Virus record (IMG/VR): IMGVR_UViG_3300045936_000084
Coordinates: 1-43,144 of that record
Strand: one strand, 5' to 3'
DNA length: 43,144 nucleotides
From: a virus
Shown here: positions 31,545 through 42,633 of the stretch, piece by piece
How the letters are laid out: the number at the start of each line of letters is the position of its first letter
Position numbering within the stretch: position 1 is the first letter of the stretch
Program-made: the position numbers and the translations under genes
Notes under the pieces: model-generated
Databases searched by the model: none
Told to the model about the DNA's origin: nothing
The model's input: the letters and a program-made list of their open reading frames with translations, nothing else

Positions 31545-32099
31545 GTGGCGTTCGAGTCGAAAGACCTCTGCATCGGCTTTTTCGCCGACGTCTGGAATGC
31601 CGGCCACATCGTCTTTCCCGACAAGGCGCGGATTCTCGAGATTGGCTGCGCGGAGGCGGACTGGCAGAGCCCGATGTTAGCGCTGCGACCGGACCTCGAG
31701 ATCGTCGGCGTGGACGTGCGCGCGTGTTCACGGCCGGGGGAGCTGATTCAAGCGGACGTACTGACGCTGGAGTTCCCGAAGCAGTCGTGTGACGCGATTG
31801 TGTCGGTGAGTGCGATCGAGCACATCGGGTTGGGGGCGTATGACGATCCGCTGGACGAGCACGGGGACAGCGAAACGATGCGCCTGATCGGGACGTGGCT
31901 GAAGCCGGGCGGGTTGTGCTACCTCGACGTGCCGTATCGGCCGCACGGGCCGTATCAGAACACGGGGAAGCACCGCGCGTATGACCCGGAGACGTTGGCG
32001 AGCCGGCTGTTGGTGCCGTCGGGGCTGCAGCGGGAGTACGCGCAGATTTTTGACCACGGGAGTGACGGGCCGTATATCGCGATGGTGCTGCGGAAGTGA
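31545..32099 (+). CDS. Class I SAM-dependent methyltransferase, 184 aa
   Basis: GTG start directly after the portal stop. Motif I is RILEIGCAEADW (29-40), an acidic residue ends strand 2 (IVGVDV) and motif post-II is near SAIEHIG. The SAM-binding fold is clear; the acceptor is not. Its place among head genes, with another methyltransferase at 34707 and sugar genes, favours sugar or glycan methylation over DNA modification (no target-recognition part is seen). Confidence 0.8.
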   Translation: MAFESKDLCIGFFADVWNAGHIVFPDKARILEIGCAEADWQSPMLALRPDLEIVGVDVRACSRPGELIQADVLTLEFPKQSCDAIVSVSAIEHIGLGAYDDPLDEHGDSETMRLIGTWLKPGGLCYLDVPYRPHGPYQNTGKHRAYDPETLASRLLVPSGLQREYAQIFDHGSDGPYIAMVLRK

Positions 32100-32472: not shown

Positions 32473-32561
32473 GCTGGGCTGACTGGGCCATCTTTGGGCT
32501 CGCGTGTGTCGTGGGTGTGGTGATCGCGGTGGCGGTCATTCGGATTGTGAGCGCGCCATGA
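32469..32561 (+). CDS. Single-span membrane micro-protein, 30 aa
   Basis: ATG overlaps the previous stop (ATGA). Nearly all of the product is one membrane helix (WAIFGLACVVGVVIAVAVIR). The TGA overlaps the GroES start. Coupled on both sides, it is probably translated. A membrane peptide in the head operon is unexpected. Confidence 0.5.
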   Translation: MSWADWAIFGLACVVGVVIAVAVIRIVSAP

Positions 32562-32968
32562 ATCTCCGACCGTTACACGATCGCGTGCTGATCAAACCGG
32601 AGAAGAACCCGGAGCAGACCGAGTCGGGCCTGTGGCTGTCGGAGCACGGGAAACCGGAGCAGACCGGGACGGTGGTGGCGGTGGGGCCGTGTGAGCATCC
32701 GAAGTTGGCCGAAGTGCAGGGGTGGGTCGATGGACGCTGCTGCGATTCGCCGCCGCAGGCGTGTCCGTGCCGTGAATGTGACACCGGCCGGCTGTTGCTG
32801 TCGCTCGTGCGCCCTGCTCCGCTCGTGAAAATCGGCGACTACGTGGTGTTCTCCTGGGCCTCCGGTCAAGAGATCCATGTGGACGACGAGAAGTATCTGC
32901 TGATGCGTGAATCCGACATTCTGTGTGTGCTGGACCCGGAACCTGAGATCGAGGCTGTGCCTGTATGA
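32558..32968 (+). CDS. groES: Phage GroES-like co-chaperonin with Cys-rich insert
   Basis: 136 aa, where bacterial GroES has about 97. The start (MNLRPLHDRVLIKPEK) and the end (KIGDYVVF...KYLLMRESDILCVL) match GroES. A mobile-loop-like region is present (ESGLWLSEHGKPEQT). Between strands, at the place of the roof hairpin, is an insert of about 40 residues (45-87) with C45, C61, C62, C69, C71 and C74, likely able to bind zinc. Some phages supply their own co-chaperonin to help host GroEL fold the capsid protein (as T4 gp31). Adjacent scaffold and capsid genes support this. Confidence 0.88.
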   Translation: MNLRPLHDRVLIKPEKNPEQTESGLWLSEHGKPEQTGTVVAVGPCEHPKLAEVQGWVDGRCCDSPPQACPCRECDTGRLLLSLVRPAPLVKIGDYVVFSWASGQEIHVDDEKYLLMRESDILCVLDPEPEIEAVPV

Positions 32969-33831: not shown

Positions 33832-34322
33832 TGGCGAAAACAGAAGCGAGAAAGCCGCACGTCGCGGTGTACGAGCGCGCAATTCAGAATCCCTTCGGGG
33901 AACCCTCCGAAGCGATTCAGCTCAAGGACACATCGCGGATCTGCCGGTGGTTCAACGGCGGCATCCAGAATGACCACATCTGGCGGAAGAAGCGCCGCGG
34001 GTGGGAGCCGGTGAAGCCGGACGATGTGGCCGACGTCGACCAACTGGGCGGGTATCAGACCGACGCGACGGGGACGATCGTGCGCGGCGAGCGCGGGCAA
34101 GAGGTGTTGATGTCGATGCCGAAGGACATCTTCGCCAGGATTCAGCAGGCGAAGACGGCGCTGAACCTGAAGAACGTCGGCAACTCGGCCGGGATGCGGC
34201 AGGAGGTCGTGGAAGCGGCCAGCCGGAGTCTCGGGGACCAGGCCGCGGACTTCCTGCACCGCGCGGGGCCGTCGGGCGCCGTGACGGACAAGTACGAGCG
34301 GATCGCCGTCGTTGAAGAGTGA
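33831..34322 (+). CDS. Hypothetical head-region protein, 163 aa
   Basis: The ATG overlaps the scaffold stop by one base. Basic N-terminus, a Trp-containing middle (CRWFNGGIQNDHIWRKKRRG) and a helical acidic end. Possibly a minor head or capsid-assembly component. It overlaps the nucleotidyltransferase by 11 bases. Confidence 0.55.
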   Translation: MAKTEARKPHVAVYERAIQNPFGEPSEAIQLKDTSRICRWFNGGIQNDHIWRKKRRGWEPVKPDDVADVDQLGGYQTDATGTIVRGERGQEVLMSMPKDIFARIQQAKTALNLKNVGNSAGMRQEVVEAASRSLGDQAADFLHRAGPSGAVTDKYERIAVVEE

Positions 34323-34710
34323 CCACGGCTCCGTCGTGGTCCTGGCGGACGGGTGCTTCGATCCGTTGCATCTGGGCCATATCCGTTACCTCGAGGCGGC
34401 ACGCGCCTACGGGAAGGTCTGCGTGCGCGTCGCACCGGACGCCGCGATCGTCGCGAAGGGGCGAACGCCGTTTCAGAGCCAGCATGAGCGGGTGGAGACG
34501 ATCAAGGCGTTGAAGATGGTCGACCGTGTGGTGAGCGACGAGACGCTGGCGGGGGCGATCACGCGGTTGTGGCCGAAGATGCTGGTGAAGGGCTGGGACT
34601 GGAAGGGGAAGATCCCGGTGGACGTGTTCGACGCCTGTGTGTTCGTGGGGGCGCAGATTGGGTATCTGCAGGCGGTGCATCGGACGAGTAGTGAGAGGCT
34701 GGCGGGATGA
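34312..34710 (+). CDS. HIGH-motif nucleotidyltransferase (RfaE/HldE C-like), 132 aa
   Basis: TTG start inside the previous gene. The family motif is GCFDPLHLGH (14-23), followed by the usual RYLEAA helix. Relatives (GlmU-like, TagD, HldE C-terminal domain) attach AMP or CMP to a phosphorylated sugar or alcohol. Here it opens the sugar module. Length is right for a single-domain enzyme. The nucleotide and sugar cannot be read from sequence. Confidence 0.75.
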   Translation: MKSDHGSVVVLADGCFDPLHLGHIRYLEAARAYGKVCVRVAPDAAIVAKGRTPFQSQHERVETIKALKMVDRVVSDETLAGAITRLWPKMLVKGWDWKGKIPVDVFDACVFVGAQIGYLQAVHRTSSERLAG

Positions 34711-35354
34711 GCGAGCACGGTTCGGCCGTTCGTGCGCTGGATGAGGCTCGGATTCTGCGCCGCGTGTTCAATGACAGCGTGCTCGACACGTTCGAGCAGT
34801 TGATGCTCGAGCAGCCAGCCGCGCAGCCGTGGGTGCCGGTGACGGACTACTCGTGGGACGCACGCAAGGACGTCGACGGGCCGACCGCGGACCTGATCGC
34901 TGCGACGTTTCCGGCCGAGCGGATTCTGGACTTCGGCTGCGGCCACGGGCACCTGCAAGCCCTGCTCTGCTCGAAGGCGGGGTTGTGGGTGGAAGCGTAT
35001 GACCCGCACAGCCCGGTGTTCGCGCAGTATCCGCGTGGGCAGTACGACCTCGTCGTCTGCCGGGAAGTGCTGGAACACGTCGAATTACGGAAGTATCTCG
35101 GCGTCGTGCGTGAACTGTGCGACTTGTCGAAGCGCTGGGTTTACCTCACCACGCGCTTCCATCCCGATCCGCAGCATCTACTCGACGTCGCGACGAGTGA
35201 CGAGCTCGATCCGACGCACATCACCATGCTCAATCAGGACTTCCTGCGCGCGTTGTTCGTGCTGCACGGCTTCAAGCGCGATCGCGAGAAGGAACAGACG
35301 ATGGACCATCTGAAGAAGGGCCGTGTGCTGGTCTACGAGCGCGTGACGCGATGA
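34707..35354 (+). CDS. SAM-dependent methyltransferase, 215 aa
   Basis: ATG overlaps the previous stop. Motif I: RILDFGCGHGHL (72-83), acidic end of strand 2 at EAYDPH, and a post-motif acidic/aromatic segment (LVVCREVLEHV), as in small-molecule and sugar methyltransferases of class I. In a sugar module it probably methylates a sugar or its precursor. No DNA-recognition domain. Confidence 0.8.
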   Translation: MSEHGSAVRALDEARILRRVFNDSVLDTFEQLMLEQPAAQPWVPVTDYSWDARKDVDGPTADLIAATFPAERILDFGCGHGHLQALLCSKAGLWVEAYDPHSPVFAQYPRGQYDLVVCREVLEHVELRKYLGVVRELCDLSKRWVYLTTRFHPDPQHLLDVATSDELDPTHITMLNQDFLRALFVLHGFKRDREKEQTMDHLKKGRVLVYERVTR

Positions 35355-36166
35355 TCGACGCCGTCTGGAGCTATCACACGAACCCGCTGACGTGCGGGGT
35401 GACGAAGTGGAACGTTCGCCTTGCGCGAGAGCTCGGCGTGAGACATGAGCCTATTTGCGGGCCGGCACATCATCCGCTGATCTCGATCAAGCCGTCCGAA
35501 CTTGGCGACAATTACTGCGCGCGATTCACGCGACCCTACGATCTCCTACTCCATGAGACGCGCTCGATGGGCAGTCGAGAGCGTTACTGGATCATGAGCG
35601 CTGAGCGCGTCTGGGTGGTGTCCGAGCAGGACCGTATCGACGGCGCCGACGTCCTGCCGTGTCCTCCAACAGTGGAGTATCCAGAGTCCAAACGTGGCTA
35701 TCGCGTGCTGACATTCGGGATGGGCCACAAAGTCGCCGCGATGCGTCCGCACTACGAAGCCTTGCAGCGGTGGCTGAAGTGGCAGCCGCACTACATCCGG
35801 CTGTCGACCGGGGTCCACGAAGGCACGCCGTGGGACACCGCGCTGGCGGATGCCGCGAACCTGCTCCGCGACGTGTTCGGGCCGGAACGGGTGGACGTGC
35901 TGGGCTATCTGAGCGACTGCGCGCTGCACGAAGAGATCCTGGCGGCGGATGCCTGCGCGGTCTTCTACGATCCGGCGTTTCGGGCGAACAACACGACGGG
36001 GTGGGCGGTGCTCGAGCGCGACAAGATGCTGATCACGAACCTCGACGAGCACTCGCCCCAGTGCCCCGCGCTGAACGTCCACACCTGCGTGAAGGGTCAC
36101 GGGGGCCGCGTGCCGACGTGGGCGGACGTCAAAGCGATCCTGCAGCCGAGTCCCGTATGCCCATGA
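35351..36166 (+). CDS. GT-B-like glycosyltransferase candidate, 271 aa
   Basis: ATG overlaps the previous stop. The C-terminal half has the layout of a nucleotide-sugar binding domain: FGMGHKVAAMRPHY as the entry loop, DVLGYLSDCALHEEILAADA and then AVFYDPAFRANNTTGWAVLE. This recalls the E-x7-E type region of GT4 enzymes in position, though not its exact signature. The N-terminal domain is short. It may build on the product of NeuA, or use another sugar. Confidence 0.55.
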   Translation: MIDAVWSYHTNPLTCGVTKWNVRLARELGVRHEPICGPAHHPLISIKPSELGDNYCARFTRPYDLLLHETRSMGSRERYWIMSAERVWVVSEQDRIDGADVLPCPPTVEYPESKRGYRVLTFGMGHKVAAMRPHYEALQRWLKWQPHYIRLSTGVHEGTPWDTALADAANLLRDVFGPERVDVLGYLSDCALHEEILAADACAVFYDPAFRANNTTGWAVLERDKMLITNLDEHSPQCPALNVHTCVKGHGGRVPTWADVKAILQPSPVCP

Positions 36167-36549
36167 TCGAACCATTCGAGCCGCACGACATTCCCGGCAA
36201 GCCGTGGGGCCGGGAACTGGTGTTCGCGCACACTGCCGACTACCTCGGGAAAGTGCTGTGGATGAACAAGGGGCACGGCGGGCACCTGCAGTACCACGAA
36301 CGGAAGGACGAGACGTTCTTTCTGCTCAGCGGCTCCGCGCAGGTGAACTTCCACGACGCCGCCGGCCAATTGGTCAGCCGGATCATGCTCCCCGGGGAGT
36401 CGTATCACGTCCCGCCCGGCGCGGTGCATCAGGTGATCGCGCTCGAGGACTCCATCCTGGTCGAAGCCTCCAACCCGGTGTTCGAGGACCGCGTGATCGT
36501 CAAGCCGATGGGCGCGCCGCTGGATCTGGAATGTCCGACGCATCTCTGA
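36163..36549 (+). CDS. Cupin-type sugar isomerase/epimerase-like protein, 128 aa
   Basis: ATG at 36163 overlaps the previous stop (ATGA); an in-frame ATG at 36157 is also possible. Cupin motif 1 is GHGGHLQYHERKDETFFLLS, with His and Glu ligands, and motif 2 is PGESYHVPPGAVHQV. This is the small cupin often found next to NeuB homologues in nonulosonic acid loci and related to the C-terminal domain of type II mannose-6-phosphate isomerases. The reaction is not proven. Confidence 0.75.
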   Translation: MIEPFEPHDIPGKPWGRELVFAHTADYLGKVLWMNKGHGGHLQYHERKDETFFLLSGSAQVNFHDAAGQLVSRIMLPGESYHVPPGAVHQVIALEDSILVEASNPVFEDRVIVKPMGAPLDLECPTHL

Positions 36550-37607
36550 CCCTCAACGGCCGGCGGATCGCCCTGGATGCCCCAGCGTATATATGTGCGG
36601 AGATCGGCCACAACCACGGCGGGTCTGTGGATTCGGCGATCCAGCACATCGAAGCCGCGGCGAGTGCCGGCGTGGACGCCGTGAAGTTCCAGAAACGGGA
36701 CAATCCCAGTCTCTATACCCGCGCCCTGCTCGAGCAGCCCTACGAGCACGAGCACAGCTACGGCAGCACCTACGGGAAGCACCGGGAAGCCCTGGAACTG
36801 ACGTTCGCGGACCTGATGCACTGTCAAACCGCGGCGCGGGCGCAGCATGTGACGCTGTTCTCGACCGCGTTTGACGCCCACAGCGCGGACCTCTGCGCGA
36901 CGATGGGGATGCCGGCGATCAAGATCGCCTCGGGTGACCTGACGAACACACCACTCCTGCGCCACGTCGCGCAGTTGGGGCGCCCGATCATCCTTTCCAC
37001 GGGGGGCGGCACGTTCGAGGACATCGACCGGGCCGTGGAAGCGGTTACGCGGCACACCCACGAGCTCGCGCTGCTCCACTGCACGGCGGCGTATCCCGTG
37101 CGGGACTTCGCGGAGCTGAATCTGAAGGTGATCCCGCAGATGCTGGTGCGGTATCCCGACTGCGTGATCGGGTGGTCGGGGCACGATTCGGGCATCGCGA
37201 TGGCACTGCTCGCCTACGCGCTCGGTGCGCGGATCATTGAAAAGCACTTCACGCTGAACCGGGCCAACAAGGGCACGGACCACGCCTTCTCGCTCGAACC
37301 GGCCGGCATGAAGAAGCTGGTGCGGGACCTCGAGCGGGCGCACATCGCGCTGGGGGACGGCGTGAAGCGGCGCTATGCCTCGGAAGAAGCCCCACTGCGG
37401 AAGATGGCGAAGTCGATCGTGGCGGCGCATGATCTGCCGGCGGGGCACGTCCTGCAGTCGGGCGATCTGGTGTGCAAGTCGCCCGGGGGCGGATTGCCGC
37501 CGTACCTGCTCGAGCAGATGCTGGGATTCCCGCTCAGTCGGTCACTGAACGAAGACGAGTGTGTGCAGTACGCGGACCTCGGTGGCGCGCAGTTGGCGGC
37601 GTCGTGA
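36531..37607 (+). CDS. neuB: NeuB-type nonulosonic (sialic) acid synthase
   Basis: 358 aa from the ATG at 36531. The TIM-barrel synthase domain shows AEIGHNHGG (23-31), VDAVKFQK, IKIASGDLTN, GWSGHD and EKHFTLNR. A C-terminal antifreeze-like SAF domain (about 285-345) is present. The family condenses phosphoenolpyruvate with a hexosamine derivative (ManNAc or a 2,4-diamino sugar) to form a nine-carbon acid. The C-terminal end is complete. It overlaps the cupin by 19 bases. The precise product (sialic, legionaminic or pseudaminic type) cannot be told by eye. Confidence 0.92.
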   Translation: MSDASLTLNGRRIALDAPAYICAEIGHNHGGSVDSAIQHIEAAASAGVDAVKFQKRDNPSLYTRALLEQPYEHEHSYGSTYGKHREALELTFADLMHCQTAARAQHVTLFSTAFDAHSADLCATMGMPAIKIASGDLTNTPLLRHVAQLGRPIILSTGGGTFEDIDRAVEAVTRHTHELALLHCTAAYPVRDFAELNLKVIPQMLVRYPDCVIGWSGHDSGIAMALLAYALGARIIEKHFTLNRANKGTDHAFSLEPAGMKKLVRDLERAHIALGDGVKRRYASEEAPLRKMAKSIVAAHDLPAGHVLQSGDLVCKSPGGGLPPYLLEQMLGFPLSRSLNEDECVQYADLGGAQLAAS

Positions 37608-38032
37608 TGCCGATCGATCCGACGCGCCTCTGTGCTTGTCACGGCGAGCCGATGTACGTGGACTCGCGGCGCTTGTGTTGCATGATCAAGCGTCGCGCAC
37701 AACTCAAGCTCGCCAACGCACGACCAGATCGGAAGGCATCGCGTGCCCGCTATAACCGGCGGCGGATGCTCAAAGTCGGGGACCACTACTACGGGTACGC
37801 GCGCACGGATGAATCGGCGCGTCTGATCAAGACCTACATCAAGGAGCGATTGAGTGTCTTTAAGCAGGGACAGTCGGCAGGAGCGGAAGTTGAAAGCCGT
37901 TCGGCGGGCACAGTTTCGGCTGAAGCAGGCACTCGATCGGATCGACTTCGAGGAAGACGTGCTGCTGCCGGAGATCCAAGCGCTCAAGGCGGGCAAGTCC
38001 GTCCTGGGGCTCGAAGCGGGCACCGCGTTTGA
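37607..38032 (+). CDS. Basic Cys-containing protein with a run-on C-terminus
   Basis: ATG shares a base with the NeuB stop. The first ~84 residues look genuine: CACHGEPMYVDSRRLCCMIK, a basic RARYNRRRMLK segment and YARTDESARLIKTYIKERL. Past about 37860 the frame continues for 57 codons inside the next gene with weak codon bias. So either the overlap of about 180 bases is real or an earlier stop has been lost. It resembles small HNH-like or nucleic-acid-binding phage proteins without the HNH triad. Confidence 0.5.
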   Translation: MPIDPTRLCACHGEPMYVDSRRLCCMIKRRAQLKLANARPDRKASRARYNRRRMLKVGDHYYGYARTDESARLIKTYIKERLSVFKQGQSAGAEVESRSAGTVSAEAGTRSDRLRGRRAAAGDPSAQGGQVRPGARSGHRV

Positions 38033-38099
38033 CATCCAAGTCGTCGCCGATGATTCTCCAGATCATCCAAAAGCCCAGCGCGCCCGCCGCGCGCATTGA
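37854..38099 (+). CDS. Hypothetical basic helical protein, 81 aa
   Basis: GTG with AAGGAG upstream (37841-37846) at a good distance. Highly basic first half (DSRQERKLKAVRRAQFRLKQ), then an acidic helix. Codon bias is strong across the region that it shares with the run-on of the previous gene. It overlaps the next gene by 50 bases. Possibly nucleic-acid binding. Confidence 0.6.
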   Translation: MSLSRDSRQERKLKAVRRAQFRLKQALDRIDFEEDVLLPEIQALKAGKSVLGLEAGTAFDIQVVADDSPDHPKAQRARRAH

Positions 38100-38709
38100 C
38101 GTCGGGCCGCTCCGCATCACGGTCCCGTCGCGCCCGATGCGCGTGCTGGACGTCGACATCGAGAACCGCCCTTTGAGCTATCTCGGCTCAGACTTCACCA
38201 CTGGGGAAGTCACGGCGGTGGCGTGGGCGTGGGTGGATCGACCGGAGGACGTCACCGTCTACCTGCTCGGGGAGGCGGAACGCGCGGACATTGTACGTGC
38301 CTTCGTCCGTGTGTATGAGCAGGCCGACCTCGTTACGGGGCACTACGTGAAGGGCCACGACCTCCCCATGCTCAACGGGGCGCTGATGGAGCTTGGGCTG
38401 CCGCTGCTGCAGGACAAGCTCGTCCAAGACACGAAGTTGGACTTGCCGAAGATCAAGGGGTTGTCGCTGTCGCAGGAAAGCCTCGCGGCCATGTTCCGGC
38501 TCGATCATCAAAAGCAGTCGATGAACCAGGCGCAGTGGCGCGCGGCGAATCGGCTGACGCCGGAGGGCTTGGCGGAAGTCCGCCGGCGCGTGGTCGGGGA
38601 CGTGCAGCAGCACATCGAATTAAGGGCAGAACTGTTGGAGCGAGACTATCTCGGGCCACCCGTGGTCTGGAAGTCTGGCGCGGGGGCCATTGAGGCGTAC
38701 ACGCCATGA
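38050..38709 (+). CDS. DEDD-type 3'-5' exonuclease-like protein, 219 aa
   Basis: ATG at 38050 inside the previous gene. Exo I: LDVDIEN (33-39; D36, E38). Exo II: TGHYVKGHDLPML, with D104. Exo III: VVGDVQQHIEL, with D184. The RNase H-like DnaQ/DEDD fold is therefore likely, with activity on DNA or RNA ends. No polymerase is linked to it. It is odd in the middle of a sugar module. Confidence 0.7.
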   Translation: MILQIIQKPSAPAARIDVGPLRITVPSRPMRVLDVDIENRPLSYLGSDFTTGEVTAVAWAWVDRPEDVTVYLLGEAERADIVRAFVRVYEQADLVTGHYVKGHDLPMLNGALMELGLPLLQDKLVQDTKLDLPKIKGLSLSQESLAAMFRLDHQKQSMNQAQWRAANRLTPEGLAEVRRRVVGDVQQHIELRAELLERDYLGPPVVWKSGAGAIEAYTP

Positions 38710-38736
38710 GTCGCGATTCAGTGCGCGGAGGGCGTC

Positions 38737-38903
38737 ATGCACACGTTGACGGCGGACGATTACGAGATGTCCCTGGACGGCGTCGCACTACTCCCCGAAA
38801 ATCCCGAGCCGTACGACGTCGATCCAGCGGAAGACCGACCGCGCAGCGCGAGGGCTTGTCGCGGGAGGAGATCGAGTACTTCCTTGACCAGTGGCGGAAA
38901 TGA
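38737..38903 (+). pseudogene. Small gene apparently frameshifted (-1) near 38830-38850
   Basis: The ATG at 38737 opens a frame with strong codon bias (MHTLTADDYEMSLDGVALLP...) until about 38840, after which its bias collapses. The -1 frame then takes over with strong bias (GLSREEIEYFLDQWRK) and ends at TGA 38901-38903, overlapping the next ATG in the usual way. The two parts read as one protein of about 55 aa split by a frame change. The cause may be an assembly indel, a mutation or programmed frameshifting; no classic slippery heptamer is seen at the switch. Confidence 0.5.
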
Positions 38904-39082
38904 TGTTTCGCGTGCCCGCGGTCGACGATGAAGTGTGTCCCAAATGCGGGAGCGCGAACGTGGGCCGCAAGGTGCGCGTGTGGCGCGTCGCGGACGAGCG
39001 CGGCCCGCACCATGAGTGCGACGTGTGCGCGCACTCGTGGAAGACACCCGAACAGGTGCGGTTCGCGGGTGAGCGGGTATGA
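38900..39082 (+). CDS. Small zinc-ribbon protein, 60 aa
   Basis: Two ATGs (38900 and 38903) overlap the previous TGA. Zinc-ribbon pattern: CPKCGSANVGRKVRV and later HECDVCAHSW, in all four Cys. Such proteins often bind nucleic acid or protein. The stop overlaps the NeuA start. Confidence 0.65.
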   Translation: MMFRVPAVDDEVCPKCGSANVGRKVRVWRVADERGPHHECDVCAHSWKTPEQVRFAGERV

Positions 39083-39819
39083 TCGCGCTCATCCCCGCGC
39101 GCCTCGGCTCCAAGCGTATCCCGCGCAAAAACATCCGCCACTTGGCGGGCCATCCGTTGCTCGCCTACACGATCGCCGCGGCGCGCGAGTCCGGCGTGTT
39201 CGCCGAAGTCCTCGTCTCCAGCGAATCCCTCGAGGTGGGCCAGATTGCGACGGCCTACGGGGCCGGCTGGTTGCCGCGGGACGACGCCTTCGCGACGGAC
39301 GACGCCGCCGACATTCTGTGGGTGCAAGCCGCGCTCAAGACGGTGCCGTGCGACGCCTTCGCGATTCTCCGACCGACGAGCCCGTTCCGCACAGCGGATA
39401 CCATCCGACGCGCGCACCGGAAGTTTTACACGAACGAAGCGCACTCGCTGCGGGCGGTGCAGCCGGCGAAAGAGCATCCCGGCAAGATGTGGGCGTGGGA
39501 CGGGCCGGGGTATCCCATGACGCCGCTGCTGTCCTATCAACGCTCCGACGGTGTCCCGTGGCACTCCAGCCCGACGCAGACGCTGCCGACGTTCTATATG
39601 CAGAACGCGAGTCTGGAGATGTGCTGGGCCTACGTTGCGCGGGACTTGAACAGTATCACCGGGAAGAAAGTGGTTCCGTTTCTCACCGAGGGTTATGAAG
39701 GATTCGATCTCAACACCGACCGAGACTGGCACGAAGCCGAAAGACTCCTCGCCGAAGGGCTCGTATCCCTTCCGGCGCTGGATGTGGCCGCTCTACGCGA
39801 AGCGGCTGGCGCACTCTAA
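39079..39819 (+). CDS. neuA: NeuA-type CMP-nonulosonic acid synthetase
   Basis: 246 aa, ATG overlapping the previous stop. The nucleotide-binding N-terminus (ALIPARLGSKRIPRKNI) and the region LRPTSPFRT agree with CMP-sialic/legionaminic acid synthetases, which join CMP to a nine-carbon acid. A late EGYEGFDLNTDRDW closing segment also matches. The product of NeuB (36531) is the expected substrate. Related CMP-Kdo synthetases are an alternative, but the SKRIPRKN form fits NeuA better. Confidence 0.88.
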   Translation: MIALIPARLGSKRIPRKNIRHLAGHPLLAYTIAAARESGVFAEVLVSSESLEVGQIATAYGAGWLPRDDAFATDDAADILWVQAALKTVPCDAFAILRPTSPFRTADTIRRAHRKFYTNEAHSLRAVQPAKEHPGKMWAWDGPGYPMTPLLSYQRSDGVPWHSSPTQTLPTFYMQNASLEMCWAYVARDLNSITGKKVVPFLTEGYEGFDLNTDRDWHEAERLLAEGLVSLPALDVAALREAAGAL

Positions 39820-40798
39820 CGCGCCGATCCTCGTCGGGCCGTTCCGCGGGGAAGTGGGCTTCGAGGTGCTGTACTGGCTCCCGTGGCTGGCGGCATTCTG
39901 CGCGAAGTATCAGATCAACCCGGAACGCCTGCTGCCCATCTCGAGGGGCGGGGCCGCGGCGTGGTATGGCGCCCCGCAGGGCATCGAACTGTACGCGATG
40001 CGAACCCCGCAGCAGGTACGTGTCGAGAGTCGCCGGCATGGCGCGGCCACGGGCCTGTTGAAGCAGCGCACGGTGTCACCGTGGGACCGGGCCGTGATCG
40101 CGGACGCCGCGGAGACGCTGAAGCTGAAGCGGTATCACGTCCTGCACCCGGCGTGGATGTATCAAGACCTCGAGCCGTTCTGGCTGGCGCAGCGGGGCAT
40201 CAACTGGCTGTTGAAGCGGACGCAGTACACGCAGCCGATGCCGGTCCTGCAGCTCGAGGGCGTGACGCTGCCGAAGGAGTTCGTGGCGGTGCGGTTCTAC
40301 TCGCGCTACACGTTCCCGCCGAACGACCTCACGGCCGGCGTCGCGCGGGAGACGATCGCCCAACTCGCCCGCGCGCACGACGTGGTCCTGCTGACGACCG
40401 GGCAGCATTTCGATGACCATCAGGACTTCCGGCTGAAGAAGCGCCCGTCCAACGTCGTCGCGCTCCACGAGCTCGTCCAGATGACCCCGGAGATGAACCT
40501 GTCGGTCCAGGCGTCGGTGCTCTCGCGGGCGTTGGGGTTTGTCGGCACCTACGGCGGGATGTCCCAGCTCGCCCTGCGGCTGCTGAAGCCGTCGGTGACG
40601 TTCTATCAGGACTGGGGCGGGACGGCGTTGCCCCACAAGCACCTGGCGGACTTCCTCGCGACGTCCATCGGGGTGCCGTATCACGTCCAGCGCATCGTGG
40701 ACGTGCCGCTGGCGAAGCTGGTGCTGCCGCCGGTGGTGATGCAACAGAATATTTCGGCGGAAAACACTCAGCCGCCAGCCGAAGCCGTGGTAGCGTGA
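39782..40798 (+). CDS. Glycosyltransferase-like phage protein, 338 aa
   Basis: ATG at 39782, overlapping NeuA by 38 bases. N-terminus LVGPFRGEVGFEVLYWLPWL, then RGGAAAWYGAPQGIELYAMR and, near the C-terminus, LGFVGTYGGMSQLALRLLKP. The last segment resembles the donor-site loop of GT-B enzymes such as GT9/heptosyltransferases and O-fucosyltransferases. I recall uncharacterised relatives in phages. Being next to NeuA it is a good candidate to use a CMP-sugar, but no CMP-sugar motif is visible. Confidence 0.55.
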   Translation: MWPLYAKRLAHSNAPILVGPFRGEVGFEVLYWLPWLAAFCAKYQINPERLLPISRGGAAAWYGAPQGIELYAMRTPQQVRVESRRHGAATGLLKQRTVSPWDRAVIADAAETLKLKRYHVLHPAWMYQDLEPFWLAQRGINWLLKRTQYTQPMPVLQLEGVTLPKEFVAVRFYSRYTFPPNDLTAGVARETIAQLARAHDVVLLTTGQHFDDHQDFRLKKRPSNVVALHELVQMTPEMNLSVQASVLSRALGFVGTYGGMSQLALRLLKPSVTFYQDWGGTALPHKHLADFLATSIGVPYHVQRIVDVPLAKLVLPPVVMQQNISAENTQPPAEAVVA

Positions 40799-41057
40799 TC
40801 CTGTAAGACCCTGCCGCCGAGGGACCATCGGGCGTCGTTCTGAGCGGTGCGCGATCCTGATGTGACGCGCATCGCTGGCTCGTTCTCACATCAGCCTTGC
40901 CGCCGAAGGTCCACGGGCGTTTCCCGCGGGTCGCCGCCGCGTCTGTCTCGGGCGTTGTCGGACCCTGGCCGTCGGTCAGTCGGCTAGGCGTCGGCACCTT
41001 TCCTGACCTCACAACCGATTGCTACGCGCGACGTGTGTGTCGCGGTGAGGTTTCCGC
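40799..41057 (+). promoter_or_regulatory. Largest intergenic region: repeats and hairpins before the head genes
   Basis: 259 bases without a convincing gene. It holds two imperfect direct repeats of about 25 bases (40811-40835 and 40896-40920, sharing GCCGCCGA and GGGCGT). Between them lies a hairpin with a perfect nine-base stem, CTGATGTGA/TCACATCAG (40857-40865 with 40886-40894). A further hairpin covers the ribosome binding site of the next gene. No standard promoter could be read. It probably controls the head decoration and capsid genes. Confidence 0.5.
41006..41051 (+). promoter_or_regulatory. Hairpin sequestering the ribosome binding site of the gene at 41058
   Basis: ACCTCAC (41006-41012) pairs perfectly with GTGAGGT (41045-41051), which is the ribosome binding site of the ATG at 41058. 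An inner stem CGCGAC/GTCGCG (41027-41032 with 41039-41044, loop GTGTGT) stacks directly on it. Translation would be blocked until the structure opens. Confidence 0.55.
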
Positions 41058-41615
41058 ATGGCAGACATTACGTTGACGGCGGGTGATTACATCCGACCGC
41101 ACAAGAGTCCGTGGGGGGCATTTCCCACCCGGACGGTCAAGTGTTCCACCGGCACATCCACCCAGGTGATTCGCCTCGGTCAGACGGTCGTCCTCGACCT
41201 CTCGGGCTCCACGGCGTTCCGCGATTGCGTGATCCCGTGCGGCGTGTCCTCGGGCACGCTGAATCCCGCGGCGGCGTCGATCGTCGGCATCGCGGCGGAA
41301 ACCCCGCCGACCACCGGCCTGTCGACCGTCGTGGGCGGGACGCCCGTGATCGCGGTGTGGGACTGCAACCCGAACGTGGAGTTCCGCTCGCGCACGCGCT
41401 ACGGTCTCATCACCAGTTCGTGCGTCGGGCAGACCTACGAGCTGGGGCGCGACTCCACGCTGAATATCGAGTACGTGATGCTGAACGCCTCGTCGCTCAC
41501 GACGCCGGCCAAGACGGTCGTGGTGACGGGACTGCTCGACAACCCCGGGGATTCGGGTGGCGCGCTGACGTGGCGCTTCATCCAAAGCTCCGGCTACCTC
41601 GCGTATTACAAGTAA
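41058..41615 (+). CDS. Head decoration-like protein, 185 aa
   Basis: Beta-rich, Thr/Ser/Val-rich protein with a polar start (MADITLTAGDYIRPHKSPWG) and little helix. Position immediately upstream of the major capsid protein, separated by a structured leader, is typical of capsid decoration or stabilising proteins, which are needed in many copies. No enzyme motif is seen. Two Cys pairs might be structural. Confidence 0.55.
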   Translation: MADITLTAGDYIRPHKSPWGAFPTRTVKCSTGTSTQVIRLGQTVVLDLSGSTAFRDCVIPCGVSSGTLNPAAASIVGIAAETPPTTGLSTVVGGTPVIAVWDCNPNVEFRSRTRYGLITSSCVGQTYELGRDSTLNIEYVMLNASSLTTPAKTVVVTGLLDNPGDSGGALTWRFIQSSGYLAYYK

Positions 41616-41624
41616 CCGGGACAT

Positions 41625-41696
41625 GGATTCGCTCGTCGCAGGTGCAATGTCGGCGGGCCGGTGGGCCAATCACCGGACGATCGCTGCGGCGAATCC
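41625..41696 (+). promoter_or_regulatory. Multi-stem RNA structure upstream of the capsid gene
   Basis: An outer stem GGATTCGC/GCGAATCC (41625-41632 with 41689-41696) continues as CGCAG/CTGCG (41637-41641 with 41684-41688, across a four-base bulge). Inside is a hairpin CCGGTG/CACCGG with a seven-base loop (41658-41676). The structure ends 19 bases before the capsid ATG, just ahead of AGGAG. It could raise message stability or act as a processing site for capsid mRNA. Confidence 0.55.
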
Positions 41697-41715
41697 GCTT
41701 CAGGAGTAGCGAGCC

Positions 41716-42633
41716 ATGCCACAGACACGAGGCGTTTTTGATGCCCTGTACGACAATGTCGACAAGGACATCGCTGCGATCATGAAGTCGCAGTTGAAAG
41801 AGATCCCGCGGATCTACACGAAAATCTACAACATTAAGTCGAGCGATCGGAAGTTCGAGCGCGTCGTGTCCTACGTGCCGTTCGGCGACACGCAGGCGAA
41901 GGTCGAGGGTGACGCCTACGCGACGGACCAGATCCGTCAGGGCTACACCAAGGACTTCACCCACACGGAAAACGGGTTGGCGTTCGAGGTGACCCAGACC
42001 GCGCTCGAGGACGACACGGAGAACGTGCTGACGCGCGCCGGCGAGTGGCTGGCGTTCTCGGCCCGTTACGTGGAGGAGGGCCGCGCCGCCGGGCCGTTCA
42101 ACAACGGCTTCACGTCGGAGCAGACCCCGGACGGTGTGTCTCTGTTCAACACCGCGCACCTGCTCAAGGGTGGGGGCACGGCGAAGAACCGGCTGTCCAC
42201 CGATGCGGACCTGTCGGCGACCTCGCTCACGCAGGCGCTGATCGATCTGCAGACCGACCAGAAGGACGAAGCGGGGCACCTGGCGAACCCCGTGCAGTCG
42301 CTGGTGCTCTACGTGCCGCCGGCGCTCGAGTTCATGGCGTACCGGCTGGTCCACTCGATCAACCTGCCGGGTTCGGCGGACAACGACAAGAACCCGATCA
42401 AGTCGCGGTCGTGGGATGTGATCGTGAATCCCCGGCTGACCGACGCGGATGCGTGGTTCATCGTGCCGGCGTCGAAGTCGCAGCACATGGGCACGTTCTA
42501 TCGTCGCGTCCCCATTTCGATGGAGCCGATGGCGATCGATCCGCGCACCGGCAACCGCATCTTCAAGATCCGGCATCGCTTCTCGGTCGGATTCTGGGGA
42601 TGGCAAGGAGTTTTTGGTACGGCTGGGGCCTAG
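41716..42633 (+). CDS. Major capsid protein, Mu gpT-like
   Basis: 305 aa with CAGGAGTAG ahead of the ATG. The N-terminal helix is followed by HK97-fold-type segments: SYVPFGDTQAKVEGDAYATD, a FEVTQTALEDD strand, LFNTAHLLKGGGTAKNRLST (a loop I link with Mu gpT-like major head proteins), and LVLYVPPALEFMAYRL. No protease or pro-region is evident. The GroES (32558) and scaffold (32965) presumably serve it. Confidence 0.8.
   Translation: MPQTRGVFDALYDNVDKDIAAIMKSQLKEIPRIYTKIYNIKSSDRKFERVVSYVPFGDTQAKVEGDAYATDQIRQGYTKDFTHTENGLAFEVTQTALEDDTENVLTRAGEWLAFSARYVEEGRAAGPFNNGFTSEQTPDGVSLFNTAHLLKGGGTAKNRLSTDADLSATSLTQALIDLQTDQKDEAGHLANPVQSLVLYVPPALEFMAYRLVHSINLPGSADNDKNPIKSRSWDVIVNPRLTDADAWFIVPASKSQHMGTFYRRVPISMEPMAIDPRTGNRIFKIRHRFSVGFWGWQGVFGTAGA

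Follow-up and report, generated by a model that had tools for sequence, protein, structure and literature searches.

We describe a seven-gene cassette, located among the head genes of a phage, that probably makes an acidic sugar and transfers it onto a virion protein during particle assembly. The cassette encodes a synthase of the NeuB family, a CMP-activating enzyme of the NeuA family and two glycosyltransferases. Virion glycosylation has been demonstrated for few phages, and from simple sets of transferases; a cassette dedicated to an ulosonic acid represents a new form of this known modification. The presence, throughout a lineage and among the head genes of two lineages, of a conserved cassette making its own activated sugar acid suggests that decoration of particles with charged sugars is wider among phages. 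It also marks the bacterial NeuB-SDR-aldehyde dehydrogenase-NeuA-transketolase pathway as uncharacterised.

Organization of the cassette

The stretch analysed, hereafter the window, covers 43,144 bases and corresponds to an IMG/VR contig (IMGVR_UViG_3300045936_000084) that is classified as linear. The cassette follows the scaffold region and precedes the capsid gene. It runs in the order RfaE-like nucleotidyltransferase, methyltransferase, GT4-like transferase (GT1), cupin, NeuB, NeuA and GT-B transferase (GT2), and is translationally coupled, with overlaps between reading frames of a few to 38 bases (Table 1). The genes named in a first-pass annotation of this DNA were all found complete, coupled and where it had placed them. 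Three small genes split NeuB from NeuA; two of them, the 83-aa ORF and the exonuclease-like gene, have homologs elsewhere in the genomes of relatives. Moreover, a second methyltransferase-like gene upstream is probably an accessory of the module because its homolog sits inside the cassette in two loci.

Table 1. Features of the cassette and its surroundings in the window
Feature	Position	Strand	Remark
Second small methyltransferase-like gene (DUF268/Methyltransf_23)	31545..32099	+	Homolog within cassette in L030, L035
HIGH-motif nucleotidyltransferase, RfaE domain II-like	34312..34710	+	Profile matches
SAM methyltransferase	34707..35354	+	Profile match; fused to nucleotidyltransferase in 5 relatives
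GT1, GT4-like glycosyltransferase of GT-B fold	35351..36166	+	Predicted structure
Small cupin	36163..36549	+	Position taken by SDR and aldehyde dehydrogenase in bacterial clusters
NeuB-family PEP-condensing synthase with SAF domain	36531..37607	+	Asp at Nm E134, Ser at Nm R314
Small inserted genes (83-aa ORF, DnaQ-like exonuclease, zinc ribbon)	37604..39082	+	Outside module
NeuA/PseF-like CMP-ulosonate cytidylyltransferase	39079..39819	+	Profile matches
GT2, GT-B transferase nearest GT9 heptosyltransferases/TibC	39782..40798	+	Start codon inferred; ORF open from 39695
Small head protein adjoining capsid gene, possible decoration protein	41058..41615	+	Next to GT2 in 24 contigs
Major capsid protein	41716..42633	+	PHROGs; capsid-protein search

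Terminase, portal and capsid-like neighbours were recognized in the window with PHROGs. The window also encodes an integrase and a lysozyme, and the phage is therefore probably temperate. Profile searches of the window gave no NeuC, which agrees with the first-pass annotation, and no SDR, aldehyde dehydrogenase or transketolase. No transmembrane segment was found in any cassette protein, and the cassette lacks genes for a flippase or a polymerase. Scans of the window for promoters and terminators gave no excess over chance. The stretch of ~260 bases between GT2 and the decoration-like gene (40799-41057) holds no gene, and many relatives have a gap of similar size (roughly 300 bases) at the same junction; it is possibly a promoter or an RNA element. 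Inspection by eye also revealed a GroES-like co-chaperonin at 32504-32968 (MNLRPLHDRVLIKPE...), directly 5' of the scaffold-like gene, a place that it keeps in relatives.

The synthase belongs to a separate NeuB subfamily

The window NeuB matches the Pfam NeuB domain (E 4e-73; 246 bits against a curated cut-off of 22.1) and a SAF domain (E 2e-7), which places it in the NeuB family. Residues E25, K53, Q55, K129, S132, H215, H236 and D247 of the meningococcal enzyme (Nm NeuB) are invariant in 21/21 phage sequences, so that the phage proteins carry the metal and PEP-site residues of PEP-condensing synthases. NeuA likewise has the CTP_transf_3 domain (E 1e-17) and the N-terminal nucleotide motif of the NeuA/PseF family, and matches PseF with an E-value of 2e-30.

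These matches could mean that the product of NeuB and NeuA is an ordinary nonulosonic acid (Neu, Leg or Pse type), derived from a 2-epimerised amino sugar of the host, with only the supply genes missing; the first-pass annotation had likewise inferred a nonulosonic acid and a host amino-sugar precursor. We consider this reading rather unlikely. The invariant catalytic core and strong matches of NeuB to NeuB_NnaB, the NCBIfam equivalog for N-acetylneuraminate synthase (276 bits), and to PseI (225 bits), and of NeuA to PseF (106 bits), speak for it, but all three scores stay under the curated cut-offs of 400, 340 and 206 bits, respectively. Moreover, Arg314 of meningococcal NeuB, the only active-site residue contributed by the SAF domain, contacts ManNAc, and the R314A variant is reported to be inactive (PMC6795526). 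This position is occupied by Ser in the window NeuB, while in other phages it holds other residues or the SAF domain has been lost. The SAF domain is absent from most phage NeuBs, and those without it form one supported clade.

The same features are found in bacteria, where Ser occupies the Arg314 position in 73 of 80 sequences and Asp the E134 position in 75; since this set was retrieved by motif patterns of the same subfamily, the counts describe the subfamily and not NeuB at large. A branch with a support of 99 places canonical NeuB copies and meningococcal NeuB outside the subfamily. Judged by its sequence, the window NeuB thus belongs to a separate subfamily and falls outside the standard sialic acid synthases, and its substrate may be a non-N-acetyl sugar.

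Bacterial clusters point to another precursor route

The 80 bacterial loci encode an SDR (63/80), an aldehyde dehydrogenase (60/80), a transketolase (49/80) and a KdsC-like phosphatase (28/80). Nucleotidyltransferase, methyltransferase, GT1, NeuB, NeuA and GT2 are found all together in 13 of them, and nucleotidyltransferase, GT1 and GT2 co-occur far above expectation (Fisher P <1e-9, kinship among loci being ignored). In Acidobacteriota the order is GT2-like gene, nucleotidyltransferase-methyltransferase, GT1, NeuB, SDR, aldehyde dehydrogenase, NeuA and transketolase; in some of these clusters, as in some phage relatives, the nucleotidyltransferase and the methyltransferase are fused. The phage cassette is colinear with this arrangement, except that the cupin stands in place of the SDR and the aldehyde dehydrogenase and that GT2 lies at the opposite end. 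Acidobacteriota, planctomycete and other chromosomal clusters (e.g., L114, L136 and L146) have SDR, aldehyde dehydrogenase and transketolase genes, which the phage lacks. The bacterial homologs belong to exopolysaccharide loci that also contain XrtA/PEP-CTERM-type genes, and because the colinear cluster has this setting, its ancestral product was probably a surface glycan.

Bacterial Neu, Leg and Pse pathways resemble the window in having a NeuB-family synthase near a NeuA/PseF-family CMP transferase. They differ in that the window has neither NeuC or an equivalent epimerase nor a NeuB with Arg314, and in that the bacterial version of its cluster carries SDR, aldehyde dehydrogenase and transketolase. 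A precursor epimerase, as in canonical nonulosonic pathways, was not found in the cluster; NeuC occurs only beside a separate canonical NeuB. Two bacterial loci, L120 and L138, hold both sets separately, a canonical NeuB beside NeuC and a subfamily NeuB with aldehyde dehydrogenase, NeuA and transketolase (NeuC scored over its curated cut-off in L120; the families in L138 were assigned by clustering). The pathway of the subfamily is therefore distinct from the NeuC-dependent synthesis of sialic acid, and the need for a host amino sugar, which the first-pass annotation had deduced from the missing epimerase, does not follow.

As a tentative alternative, the subfamily could define an uncharacterised pathway in which NeuB joins PEP and an aldose without an N-acetyl group, the aldose being supplied via transketolase, SDR and aldehyde dehydrogenase steps, to form an undescribed 3-deoxy-ulosonic acid. 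Two unrelated phage lineages would have recruited parts of this pathway to their head operons and would use them to coat the virions. The open-access literature yielded no paper on a phage cassette or on a NeuB pathway linked to transketolase, an absence that is weak evidence; neuB has been listed among virome genes (PMC3877843).

Transferases and sugar-activating enzymes

Neither GT1 nor GT2 has a Pfam match. Their AlphaFold models are confident (pLDDT 88-89), and Foldseek, with weak but significant matches of modest score in both cases, relates GT1 to GT4-type GT-B enzymes and GT2 to GT-B enzymes of the GT9/TibC/WaaC kind (for GT2, E 5e-5, probability 1.00, TM about 0.4). By sequence, GT2 reaches only an E-value of 0.004 with heptsyl_trn_I, short of assignment to the GT9 heptosyltransferases, and has no significant match among solved structures. 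GT2 may have the GT-B fold in common with TibC, a protein heptosyltransferase, and with the GT9 heptosyltransferases, which it resembles in a weak structural match. In line with this likeness, its cassette also encodes an RfaE-like nucleotidyltransferase. Distant GT2 homologs (30-32% identity) occur in other viral contigs (L185-L193), most of them beside a methyltransferase, with none of the other cassette genes within the stretch examined.

The nucleotidyltransferase matches CTP_transf_like (E 2e-13) and rfaE_dom_II (E 8e-21), and the methyltransferase has a profile match of E 1e-15. The two form a single open frame in five relatives, a fusion which suggests that they work on the same substrate. 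The cupin (E 1e-7) has no homolog in the 80 bacterial loci; its identification as a mannose-6-phosphate isomerase was rejected, as only generic cupin matches were obtained.

Conservation of the cassette in related phages

A search of IMG/VR with the capsid protein gave 41 relatives. The same cassette is present wherever the stretch from scaffold to capsid is unbroken and capsid-protein identity reaches 70% or more. Complete sets of seven genes occur in 17 other viral contigs across all scans, and sets of at least five in 24. GT2 adjoins the decoration-like gene in 24 contigs, and the nucleotidyltransferase, at the start of the cassette, adjoins the scaffold-side gene in 14. In rearranged genomes the cassette mostly travels as a block or remains with the scaffold, as it does in three of them. 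In distant relatives the cassette, or GT2, lies near or upstream of the terminase or elsewhere, not beside the capsid gene. Among seven relatives without the cassette directly 5' of the capsid gene, two carry it elsewhere and the others are short fragments. An apparent NeuB-less cassette (G016, L059:1-3300) was rejected: the contig is a probable chimera, because a bacterial TypA/BipA-like GTPase is encoded at its end.

The NeuBs of the window's lineage form one clade in the tree. The cassette genes are under purifying selection, with pairwise dN/dS values of about 0.04-0.49. Thus, neither a recent, decayed acquisition from a host nor absence from all related phages, the two outcomes that the first-pass annotation had named as fatal to its reading, was observed, linkage being kept in about two dozen relatives.

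Comparison of a near-identical phage fragment (L006) with positions 38909-42630 of the window showed identical capsid and decoration-like proteins, while NeuA and GT2 are only 95-96% identical, indicating that the sugar genes change faster than the head proteins.

The lineage is essentially uncultured, because among 50,697 phage records GT1, GT2 and the portal had no match and NeuB only three, all below 36% and one of them to a bacterial contig. The capsid protein had no match in nine bacterial genomes carrying the cluster and only relatives of 28-37% in about 765 genomes (one class and one phylum), and we therefore assign no host.

A second, unrelated phage lineage

Distant NeuB matches pointed to a group of HK97-type phages whose genes include Terminase_4, TerL, Phage_portal, Peptidase_S78 and Phage_capsid. 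Between TerL and portal, these phages encode NeuB, an SDR, NeuA and an FkbM-type methyltransferase (L216-L240), sometimes with a transketolase that is about 200 residues shorter than the bacterial one. NeuB is found in one piece with portal, protease and capsid in 13 contigs, some of which are near-duplicates. Their NeuBs form a clade of their own, apart from the window's lineage. The NeuB-NeuA set has thus been kept among head genes in both lineages, whose head modules differ; in the HK97-type phages, no transferase was identified.

A further viral contig (L195/L232) encodes nucleotidyltransferase-methyltransferase, GT1, NeuB, SDR, NeuA, transketolase and GT2. Its gene set is midway between the phage and bacterial forms, and its NeuB falls in the window's clade.

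Proposed role in virion decoration

From family and conserved active site, NeuB would join PEP to an aldose, giving a 3-deoxy-2-ulosonic acid, which NeuA would activate with CMP. The RfaE-like nucleotidyltransferase and the sometimes fused methyltransferase may prepare a second activated sugar, probably methylated, and the two soluble GT-B transferases would build a short glycan on a virion protein in the cytoplasm. Precursors would come from the host; judging by the bacterial cluster, their supply may involve SDR, aldehyde dehydrogenase and transketolase steps instead of the NeuC route. A virion protein is the likeliest acceptor on present sequence data, because the predicted enzymes are soluble, belong to a late head operon in two lineages and are accompanied by no export genes. 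The most likely acceptor would be a head protein, with the small protein encoded next to the capsid gene as one candidate, and the glycan would probably shield or alter the virion surface.

The first-pass annotation had described a module for synthesis, activation and transfer coupled to head genes, and this description is borne out by the linkage in about two dozen relatives and in the unrelated lineage. The same linkage makes virion decoration the better of the two functions that it had offered, the other being remodelling of the host surface. According to the latter, which we regard as unlikely, the cassette alters LPS or capsule during infection or lysogeny and so blocks superinfection or changes receptors. 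The integrase makes such lysogenic conversion possible, the exopolysaccharide setting of the bacterial colinear cluster fits it, and GT2, whose similarity to GT9/TibC is weak, resembles LPS heptosyltransferases too; the position of the cassette away from the capsid gene in distant relatives also counts against decoration. Against a surface function, however, the cassette has no membrane, flippase, polymerase or anchor genes, and it belongs to a late head operon in two unrelated lineages instead of forming a stand-alone set beside the integrase. In the window's lineage, the phage-encoded transferases are conserved with structural genes, the pattern looked for in virion glycosylation.

Phages do glycosylate DNA, and the sugars might modify DNA or a small metabolite as an anti-defence measure; we hold this to be very improbable, as the annotated parts showed no obvious genes for hydroxymethyl-pyrimidines or base modification, the location is in a late head operon, and the transferase folds are closest to GT9/TibC and GT4. 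That the cassette merely consists of recently captured host genes without a phage role, as the colinear clusters in Acidobacteriota and other phyla might suggest, has a negligible probability and is already contradicted by the single phage clade, the conserved linkage and the purifying selection.

Virion decoration by the cassette would have parallels in actinobacteriophages, where the combination of methyltransferase and glycosyltransferase is a pattern tied to glycosylated virions (PMC13313380), and virion glycosylation is known in mycobacteriophages (Freeman et al. 2023, as cited in PMC12691614 and PMC13313380). As presented in these citing papers, phage glycosyltransferases and a methyltransferase are proposed to act on virion proteins, as we propose for the window. 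In addition, the window encodes a synthase for an ulosonic acid, an enzyme that would activate it with CMP and another that would activate a second sugar, all within the head operon.
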